Positions 15,758-48,537 of a stretch of 64,000 nucleotides of DNA are shown here, piece after piece (position 1 is the stretch's first letter; each line of letters begins with the position of its first letter). Under the pieces are notes generated by a model, which did not search any database, was not told where the DNA came from, and was given only the letters and a program-made list of their open reading frames with translations. The position numbers were made by a program, and so were the translations under genes. This DNA is from Thermotogae bacterium (lineage in GTDB: Bacteria > Thermotogota > Thermotogae > Mesoaciditogales > Mesoaciditogaceae): the NCBI GenBank assembly GCA_026988035.1, contig JALSLY010000084.1, positions 1-64,000 of the forward strand. Direction: 5' to 3'.

Positions 15758-16921
15758 ATGGTTTACATTGGTATTGACGTTTCATCCAACAAGTTCAACG
15801 TCTATATCCTTTATCCTGATTCTTCAAAATCCATTGCCCTTTCTTTTCATCAGTCTCGAAGAGGCTTTGAAAAGTTCCTTTCAAAGCTTCTAAATATCCA
15901 CGAGGATGTGCTTATCGCCATGGAGTCAACAGGTGTTTATCACATGAGCCTGTACAATTTCCTTTCATCAAATGGCTTTGAACCTCTCTTGCTTCATCCT
16001 TATACCATCAAGCATTTCCTTAAGGCATCCTCTCATTCAAAGACCGACTCAATAGATGCTCGCAGTATCGCAATTGTGCTTTCTCAACTTTCTAATTCCC
16101 TTCGTCTTTCCAATATTCCATCAAATCAGCTTAATGCTCTTAGAGAGCTTGTTAGATTCAGAAATTCTATCGTTCAACAACGTTCATCACTTTACAGACG
16201 CTTGCATAATTTCCTCAGACTTGACATGCCTGAAATACTTAACTTCTTTGAAATCAATTCTAAGGTCCTTCTCTCTCTTCTCAAACGTTTCCCTACACGC
16301 CAGGATATACTCAACAATCAACAAGATGTCGTGAAACTGCTTTGCACTTTCAGAAATTGGAATGAATCAAAAGCTCTATCTCTCATATCTTCTTTGAAAA
16401 GGTCTATAGGCCTCAGAGATGCTTTTGGCTCTCATTCTCTCATAATCTCTTCCATAATCACTCAAGTCCAAAGCCTTTCTGAACAAATCGAAAGAATTGA
16501 GAGTAAAATTCAACAGATTCTTTCCCAATTTCCTGACAATCCCATCTCTTCAATCAAAGGCGTTGGTTTTGTAACGTTAGCTCAAATCATTTCTGAAGTC
16601 GGAGATATCTCGAGATTCAAATCTTCCAAAGCCTTTGTCGCTTATTCTGGCCTTGACCCTGTCATTCATCAAAGTGGTAAGAGCTTCTATTCTGGCAGCA
16701 TATCCAAAAAAGGTAATTCTATCCTTAGACAGGCTTTTTACAATCTCGCCGTTAGAGTGATACGTTATCCTGGCAAATACAGAGATAAATATCTTGGTCT
16801 TGTTAAGAGAGGAAAACCTAAAAAAGTTGCTTTGGTCGCTATTGCCAGAAAACTTGCTGTGCTCGTTTATACTTTATGGACAAGAGGTGAGAACTTTGAC
16901 CCAAATTTCTTCATGACTTAA
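15758..16921 (+). CDS. IS110-family transposase (DEDD/serine recombinase)
   Basis: 387 aa, full family length. The N-terminal RuvC-like DEDD domain shows GIDVSSNKFNVYI (first Asp), IAMESTGVYH (Glu) and KTDSIDARSIA (Asp pair). A coiled-coil linker (RELVRFRNSIVQQRSSLYRRL and following) leads to the C-terminal Tnp20 domain with ISSIKGVGFVTLAQIISE, FVAYSGLDP and SGSISKKGNSILRQAFYNLA containing the catalytic Ser. No stop or frameshift, so probably active. ATG 15758 follows AAAGGAGGA. The codon bias is serine/phenylalanine-rich and unlike the neighbouring genes, in line with acquisition. Confidence 0.93.
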   Translation: MVYIGIDVSSNKFNVYILYPDSSKSIALSFHQSRRGFEKFLSKLLNIHEDVLIAMESTGVYHMSLYNFLSSNGFEPLLLHPYTIKHFLKASSHSKTDSIDARSIAIVLSQLSNSLRLSNIPSNQLNALRELVRFRNSIVQQRSSLYRRLHNFLRLDMPEILNFFEINSKVLLSLLKRFPTRQDILNNQQDVVKLLCTFRNWNESKALSLISSLKRSIGLRDAFGSHSLIISSIITQVQSLSEQIERIESKIQQILSQFPDNPISSIKGVGFVTLAQIISEVGDISRFKSSKAFVAYSGLDPVIHQSGKSFYSGSISKKGNSILRQAFYNLAVRVIRYPGKYRDKYLGLVKRGKPKKVALVAIARKLAVLVYTLWTRGENFDPNFFMT

Positions 16922-45404: not shown

Positions 45405-46031
45405 TTAGCACCTCTCTTGAAATATTTTTCTATCGTCTAAACAAATACACGTGAGATATCCACCGTAAATGCAACCAGTATCTATACCAATTTTATCACT
45501 CATTATCAGTGGTTTTTTCATGGGAGTATGTCCAAAAACAACAATATGATCTTTGAGCGGGTTGTCGGAGTATATGAATTCTTCTCTTATCCACAGCATA
45601 TCTTCGCTTCTTTGCTCTTCAATGGGCTTGTTAGGTTTTACTCCTGCATGTACAAAAAAGTATCCATCTTGGATATGATATATCTTTGTATTTTTGACAA
45701 ATTCTACGTGTTCTTTTGGGATGTTTTCAATGTTCCCGTAGTTTTTTAAAGTTAGGTTGGCACCATTTATTTCCCAGAGTCTCCACATGTCAGGATCGCG
45801 GGTTTTGTAAAATTCGTAGAACATCCATTCATGATTTCCTTTCAGAAAGACAGTATTTGGATGTGTCCTTAGGAAATTGATTAGAAATTCTATTACTCCT
45901 TTTGAATCGGGCCCTCTGTCTATATAGTCTCCGAGAAAAATCATTGTGTCTTTGCTTTGTGGAGATACCTTTTTCACAAGTTTTTCTAAGGAGTTTTTGC
46001 ATCCGTGTATATCTCCGATAGCGTAAATCAA
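45405..46031 (-). CDS. calcineurin-like metallophosphoesterase (PP2A-like)
   Basis: 208 aa. The metal-binding motifs of the PPP/lambda-phosphatase type are IYAIGDIHGC, FLGDYIDRGPDSKGV, FLKGNHEWM, FFVHAGVKP and VFGHTPM followed by IGIDTGCIYGG. Could be a Ser/Thr protein phosphatase or a diadenosine tetraphosphatase-like hydrolase. TTG 46031 has GGAGGTGAT seven bases upstream; the longer version starts within the putative origin region. First gene of the long minus-strand run leaving that region. Confidence 0.88.
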   Translation of the reverse strand: MIYAIGDIHGCKNSLEKLVKKVSPQSKDTMIFLGDYIDRGPDSKGVIEFLINFLRTHPNTVFLKGNHEWMFYEFYKTRDPDMWRLWEINGANLTLKNYGNIENIPKEHVEFVKNTKIYHIQDGYFFVHAGVKPNKPIEEQRSEDMLWIREEFIYSDNPLKDHIVVFGHTPMKKPLIMSDKIGIDTGCIYGGYLTCICLDDRKIFQERC

Positions 46032-46136
46032 TTTGGAAATCACCTCCAGTTTTTCATACAATTCAAAGTTATTCACTCACTTTTTTCTACCTACTAATAT
46101 TACTATATGTTCTTAAGTATTTATAGTAGTAGGCAC

Positions 46137-46450
46137 TGTGGAAAACGTGTAAAAAACATGTAAGATACTGTAAATGCTGATTTTTTTGATTGTGGAGAAC
46201 TTATGGAAAAAATGTGTAAAACTTTTTAATTGTGGAAAATGTGGAAAACCTTTTTCTATCTCTTCACTAAGAATGGCTCTTAAGCTTTGTAAATACTGAA
46301 AAAAACAGTGAAAAGTTTTCCACAACCATTTTTTGTAGGTTTTATGCGATCTTTTGGAGTTTTCCACAATTAATTGTGGAAAACCTCTTTCGAGAATGTG
46401 GAAAACTATTGTAAAACCGTGTGAGTGCTAAATTCTTTAATTGTGGAAAA
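46137..46450. other. cluster of DnaA-box-like 9-mers: candidate chromosomal origin (oriC)
   Basis: Eight perfect copies of TGTGGAAAA or its complement TTTTCCACA in about 315 bp: 46137-46145, 46231-46239, 46240-46248, 46397-46405 and 46442-46450 on plus, 46316-46324 and 46360-46368 on minus, 46375-46383 on plus. Variants lie at 46191-46199 (TGTGGAGAA) and 46202-46210 (TATGGAAAA). The boxes at 46360 and 46375 form a perfect 26-bp palindrome (46359-46384), and two copies abut at 46231-46248. TTTTCCACA is one base from the DnaA box TTATCCACA. The region is AT-rich, non-coding, and a point where coding orientation changes. dnaA is not adjacent. Confidence 0.7.
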
Positions 46451-46585
46451 CTTGTGTTTGGTAGATATGATGAGATAATCAAAGAAAATCATGTATATTT
46501 TCAAATAATACCCTGTCAATCCCGATAATATCCTTTAATCGCCTAAATCTGGCCTTGAATGTGATGAGTAATTGCGATAACATAA

Positions 46586-46612
46586 TTAGCAGACTAAGTG
46601 CTTGAGTGCTAA
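46586..46612 (+). promoter_or_regulatory. CIRCE element (HrcA operator) of groESL
   Basis: TTAGCAGAC (46586-46594), 9-bp spacer, GAGTGCTAA (46604-46612). The right half is perfect and the left half matches TTAGCACTC at the first six positions. It lies 23 bp before the groES start, the usual place. A further perfect half-site GAGTGCTAA is at 46423-46431 without a partner. HrcA is not encoded in the window. Confidence 0.85.
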
Positions 46613-46635
46613 AAAATGAAAGGAGGTTTTTTACA

Positions 46636-46902
46636 ATGAGAGTTAAACCCATCGGCGAGAGGCTTCTCATCAAGCCAATCAAAGAAGAACTGAAGTCTGC
46701 AGGAGGTATCGTTCTTCCTGAAAAAGCCAAGGAAAAGTCCCAAAAGGCAGAGGTCATTGAAATCGGAACGAGTGACGAGATCAGTGTCAAAGTTGGGGAC
46801 AAAGTTATTTTTGCCAAATATTCCGGTAATGAAATCAAAATGGACGACGAGGATTACGTGATAATCGATTGGAGCGACATCCTTGCCAAGATTGAGGAGT
46901 AA
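46636..46902 (+). CDS. groES: co-chaperonin GroES
   Basis: 88 aa. MRVKPIGERLLIKPIKEEL, GGIVLPEKAKEKSQKAEVIEIG and VGDKVIFAKYSGNEIKMDDEDYVII show the Cpn10 fold with the mobile loop (about residues 17-32). ATG 46636 has AGGAGG upstream; the longer frame starts in the CIRCE region. Caps the GroEL ring encoded 15 bp downstream. Confidence 0.97.
   Translation: MRVKPIGERLLIKPIKEELKSAGGIVLPEKAKEKSQKAEVIEIGTSDEISVKVGDKVIFAKYSGNEIKMDDEDYVIIDWSDILAKIEE

Positions 46903-48537
<1,635 letters not shown>

Follow-up and report, generated by a model that had tools for sequence, protein, structure and literature searches.

Among described replication origins, that of Thermotoga maritima (tma-oriC), from the same phylum, offers the nearest comparison with the locus described here. 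It combines an AT-rich DNA unwinding element (DUE), three TAG repeats, which are essential (Lu 2023, PMC10316083), and a cluster with an inverted box (Lu 2023, PMC10316083; Ozaki 2006), and all of these features have counterparts at the present locus, whereas its box is a non-canonical 12-mer. The helix-turn-helix of DnaA is likewise divergent in T. maritima, where it reads NRSHPVV, as against GRDHSSV in the genome studied here. In a genome that is presumably that of T. maritima or of a close relative (G090:C1, L219), the 12-mer cluster lies at 157.0–157.3 kb and groES at 532 kb, hence at another locus than here; the neighbours of that cluster are a LUD-domain-like gene on one side and DUF177-rpmF-plsX on the other (names assigned by eye).

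A second point of reference is the basal unwinding system of bacterial origins, as in Bacillus subtilis (PMC8287927), in which tandem DnaA boxes, a short gap and DnaA-trios stand by an AT-rich element. In this system the box carries ≤2 mismatches to the standard word and its tandem partner ≤4, the spacer between box and trios measures 0–16 bp and most often 10–13 bp (13 bp being commonest), the GC-rich gap averages 4 bp, and three or more trios (NAN), preferably 3′-GAT-5′, are needed (PMC8287927). The element described below shows the same arrangement, with a 4-bp gap and a 13-bp spacing, but it lies beside groESL instead of dnaA and continues into an array of 8–13 exact boxes of a single word.

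The box words themselves have precedents in other phyla. Cyanobacteria use TTTTCCACA as their species-specific DnaA box (PMC6323995), and the identical word occurs in the oriC of Synechococcus, Anabaena and Cyanothece (PMC4674748, PMC6323995); in Synechococcus lividus, oriC is likewise far from dnaA and dnaN (PMC4674748, PMC6323995). Cyanobacteria belong, however, to an unrelated phylum and their origins have other neighbours, usually dnaN. The word TTTTCAACA, found in Athalassotoga and two other sister genera, fits the mollicute DnaA-box motif TT(T/A)TCAACA, which was described near dnaA in phytoplasmas, where its function is doubted, and which does not form a dense array there (PMC3322544).

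Box words of this kind and dnaA-distant origins are thus each already known elsewhere (PMC6323995, PMC4674748, PMC3322544). What appears to be new, judging from sequence comparison, is a family-wide origin location beside groESL together with a recoding of all boxes between genera, for which no match was found in the literature searched (DoriC excluded). That search returned no paper combining oriC, groESL and a DnaA box. For the Mesoaciditogaceae, which have been called the deepest-branching Thermotogota (PMC7163026), it brought up no published origin; the papers found on Athalassotoga were of a general kind or dealt with genomes, and the genome paper mentions no origin.

Anatomy of the element upstream of groESL

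The window, that is, the whole stretch of 64 kb analysed here, contains between a metallophosphoesterase gene and groESL a non-coding element (~46081–46450) that is very probably the chromosomal replication origin, oriC, of the basal unwinding type. A sequence-only reading had already proposed a probable origin from the boxes; with the DUE and the DnaA-trios, absent from that reading, the anatomy of an origin is complete. The proposal now draws on the uniqueness of the cluster, the order DUE–trios–spacer–boxes, the conservation of this anatomy in nine genomes, a local skew minimum and a change of word that affects every box. The features are as follows (coordinates in the window, strand, description).

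45405–46043, minus: metallophosphoesterase gene (PF00149), bordering the element at its DUE end, as it does in all relatives
46081–46123, no strand: putative DUE, AT-rich, placed by stability, skew minimum and an AT-rich counterpart in all relatives
46124–46132, plus: TAGTAGTAG, three putative DnaA-trios (TAG repeats), by sequence reading
46133–46136, plus: GCAC, 4-bp spacer from trios to first DnaA box, read directly
46137–46145, plus: predicted DnaA box 1, exact TGTGGAAAA, adjoining the trios
46146–46154, plus: degenerate second tandem box CGTGTAAAA; exact box here in the sister species, exact TGTTGAAAA in other genera
46191–46199, plus: one-mismatch box TGTGGAGAA
46202–46210, plus: one-mismatch box TATGGAAAA
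46213–46221, plus: one-mismatch box TGTGTAAAA
46231–46248, plus: two abutting exact boxes, read directly and by word search
46316–46324, minus: inverted exact box, kept in all relatives
46359–46384, no strand: perfect 26-bp palindrome with two convergent exact boxes, 46360–46368 (minus) and 46375–46383 (plus)
46397–46405, plus: exact predicted DnaA box, by word search
46442–46450, plus: last exact predicted DnaA box, by word search
46586–46612, no strand: CIRCE-like HrcA operator of groESL, TTAGCAGAC-N9-GAGTGCTAA, apart from the boxes and kept in all relatives
46636–46902, plus: groES (PF00166, E = 7e-28)
46918–48537, plus: groEL (PF00118, E = 3e-82)

Word search of the window returned eight exact TGTGGAAAA/TTTTCCACA 9-mers in this non-coding DNA, starting at 46137, 46231, 46240, 46316 (minus), 46360 (minus), 46375, 46397 and 46442 and spanning 314 bp (46137–46450), in agreement with the eight perfect words in about 315 bp first reported, as were the abutting pair at 46231/46240 and the 26-bp palindrome. 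One-base variants are also present as reported, although they number three, spaced 11 bp apart, and not two; the aligned places in the sister species hold exact boxes. That the word differs by one base from the standard box TTATCCACA also stands, but it is less exceptional than was supposed, since it equals the cyanobacterial DnaA box (PMC6323995).

Such a density is not expected by chance. The word occurs 13 times in the whole 64-kb window against 1.71 expected (at most 8 in 100 shuffles), and a first-order Markov null with intergenic composition gave a mean of 0.03 words and a maximum of 2 in 20,000 draws, against the 8 observed. The draft genome (2.04 Mb, 86 contigs) holds the word 106 times versus 52 for a reversed control word. 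No second comparable cluster was seen among the 100 places listed for the word in this draft, where gaps separate the contigs, and the groESL locus is the sole match to the paired-word pattern; within that scope, the genome-wide scan suggested by the earlier reading shows no parallel to the cluster.

Nearest-neighbour energies rank the segment 46081–46125, upstream of the boxes, second for low stability among the distinct 45-mer sites of the 64-kb window. This segment is followed by the TAG repeats, whose position is shared by genera g1, g3 and g4; g2 (Athalassotoga) has a weaker TATTAGTATG instead. The tandem boxes stand 4 and 13 bp from the trios, the first being the weaker in most genera: the distance to the trios is 4 bp in the window and 13 bp to the exact (better) box in g3 and g4. 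Relative to TTATCCACA, TTTTCCACA has one mismatch, its tandem partner TTTTACACG three and the sister word TTTTCAACA two. Boxes, spacer and trios at the groESL element all conform to the published requirements of the basal unwinding system.

On this anatomy, DnaA would be the protein that binds the element, and unwinding and the start of replication would take place there. In the mechanism proposed, DnaA would recognise the TTTTCCACA boxes through its domain IV; from the tandem pair by the trios, an ATP-DnaA filament would grow onto the TAG repeats; the AT-rich DUE (46081–46123) would then melt and permit helicase loading; and the other boxes, including the inverted pair, may serve as extra binding sites for the DnaA complex. 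A T. maritima-type oriC was considered and rejected, the corresponding box cluster being absent: the genome has a single copy of AAACCTACCACC, which lies on another contig, and the 12-mer forms no cluster in the Mesoaciditogaceae.

Conservation within the Mesoaciditogaceae

The comparison set comprised the nine family genomes that carry groES, distributed over four genera, with G000 as the genome of the window and G015 as its sister species; groES is missing from the assembly of a tenth, G014 (87% complete), which so falls outside the nine. Relatives identified through the metallophosphoesterase include Mesoaciditoga MAGs as well as Athalassotoga saccharophila NAS-01, whose chromosome is complete, and they place the heat-loving bacterium of the window in the Mesoaciditogaceae (Thermotogota). 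The same intergenic element lies between the metallophosphoesterase gene and groES in 9/9 of these genomes, so the comparison with related genomes that had been called for yields the same region and anatomy throughout. The shared order begins with the AT-rich stretch, the TAG repeats, a 4-bp gap and two tandem boxes; it continues with direct boxes (several ~11 bp apart), an inverted box, an inverted pair (the palindrome of the window, kept in all relatives) and two direct boxes; and it ends with the CIRCE-like site followed by groES. Some boxes of G000 are decayed at places where those of G015 are exact. On the complete NAS-01 chromosome, the sole close-paired TGTTGAAAA cluster is at 516,208–516,443.

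An oriC beside groESL and away from dnaA would permit correct chromosome numbering and growth-rate estimates from metagenomes.

Separation from dnaA and strand skew

As the sequence-only reading stated, dnaA is not adjacent: it lies on other contigs (C80 and C29), between ABC-transporter genes, with one word nearby inside a coding gene. The larger cluster at dnaA that would have spoken against the origin was looked for, and no family member has a box cluster there, only single words within coding genes (gene content judged by eye); an origin at dnaA was rejected for this reason. The NAS-01 chromosome has dnaA where its numbering begins and its box cluster at 516 kb. Neither dnaA, dnaN, gyrB (GyrB motif), parAB nor parS-like sites were found near the cluster. 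The dnaA/dnaN/gidA neighbourhood is absent from the element, and this was not used to exclude oriC because such a neighbourhood is common but not obligatory.

The gene dnaA is itself cut by a contig boundary (end of C80, start of C29; 280-bp overlap, 98.9% identity), probably an assembly break within one gene. In the sister species (C4, L048:322-1698), dnaB (PF03796/PF00772) lies ~7 kb from the putative origin, beyond groEL, a placement not seen in the window. The left half of the window holds a transposase-like gene (15758–16921), IS110-type by eye only.

Cumulative GC skew of the 80-kb contig reaches its minimum at 46,103, inside the DUE, which at contig scale bears out the switch near 46.3 kb anticipated earlier. 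In G015 (78 kb) the distance between the minimum and the TAG repeat is 51 bp, and four further relatives, examined over 20-kb loci, have their minimum within the DUE or next to it; part of this local minimum is expected, because the flanking genes diverge and any divergent pair gives such a contribution. Genes on either side are oriented as first described, mostly minus to the left and several plus to the right, and coding bases running away from the cluster amount to 85% in the window's contig and 84% in G015. Strand-corrected third-position skew splits leading from lagging genes in the G000 contig (P = 0.006); no such split is present in G015 (P = 0.92). At the scale of the whole NAS-01 chromosome (~30% sampled), skew is weak: raw values place the cumulative minimum around 300 kb instead of 516 kb; after strand correction, the fit shows a broad plateau at ~420–900 kb that includes 516 kb, without a significant peak.

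These data bear on the possibility that the cluster titrates DnaA or has a regulatory role, as datA and DARS do in E. coli, the true origin being elsewhere. Its distance from dnaA would suit such a site, as would the whole-chromosome skew of the relative, which in the ~30% sampled does not point sharply to the cluster. A titration site has no need, however, of a DUE and trios at the spacing of an unwinding system; the local skew minimum falls in the DUE; and a search of family genomes, the complete chromosome included, revealed no further dense clusters of the family words. Taken together, a titrating or regulatory role without initiation is very unlikely, and the groESL element is retained as the candidate oriC.

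Probable independence from groESL regulation

The location between divergent genes, just upstream of a stress operon, would also suit operators, the 9-mers being sites at which a transcription factor controls groESL or the metallophosphoesterase gene. Yet groESL has its own CIRCE-like site at 46586–46612, kept in all relatives, and hrcA is present in the genome of the window, by which groESL is probably under separate regulation; the boxes stop >130 bp short of that site. At least ten sites combined with a DUE and trio repeats far exceed the usual operator array. In other Thermotogota families, moreover, no repeated 9-mer array, and hence no groESL-adjacent origin of this type, was found in 21 groES upstream regions. 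Operators thus appear extremely unlikely as the explanation of an element that has the anatomy of an origin.

Change of the box word between genera

At the locus, the exact boxes are only TTTTCCACA in the species of the window and in G015. In the other three genera, every exact box at this locus is TTTTCAACA, which forms a dense array nowhere else. The words differ at position 6, which is C in the genus of the window and A in the three others. When G015 is aligned with G016, 12/12 boxes differ at this position; the remaining box differences are confined to position 1 of two boxes, and spacer identity is 56%. The alignment with G012 gives nearly the same box pattern (spacer identity 62%), and that with G008 shows it for 11 boxes, the twelfth having no counterpart (spacers 56% identical). 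The aligned boxes therefore keep their place and nearly all their letters apart from position 6, against spacers that are ~56–62% identical.

Retention of box letters while spacers diverge, in a location and anatomy kept in four genera between housekeeping genes and with no plasmid replication gene seen beside the element, leaves next to no probability that the element served an integrated plasmid as its origin or is a relic out of use, despite its lack of linkage to dnaA and the decay of G000 boxes that are exact in G015.

In the DnaA tree, whose root is uncertain, the genus of the window is nested among the other genera; by parsimony, TTTTCCACA would therefore be the derived word, within the limits set by that root. 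Exactly two positions of the DnaA helix-turn-helix set the three members of this genus apart from all others, namely I → L before the turn and V → M in the recognition helix. The association between these private substitutions and the recoding of the boxes is correlative, and a single evolutionary event underlies it. The association tentatively suggests, with somewhat less than even probability, that the initiator changed its DNA specificity within the family, that the whole origin followed and that the change was coupled to the two DnaA substitutions. A change of all boxes at constant positions would be a natural experiment on the old question of how an essential initiator and a dozen sites switch specificity together, and the two candidate residues make the question directly testable in vitro.

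Minor features concern the spacers. The half-CIRCE word GAGTGCTAA also occurs inside the box cluster, at 46423–46431, and is absent from the sister species G015. The spacer that separates the first box group from the second (46146–46195), with the aligned spacers of loci L065–L068, resembles the spacer by the last boxes; CTTCAAAGCCTTGTAGATACTGATTTTTTT, present twice in L068, is an example of such repeated spacer sequence. It looks as if part of the putative origin had been duplicated, or as if a second protein were bound there.
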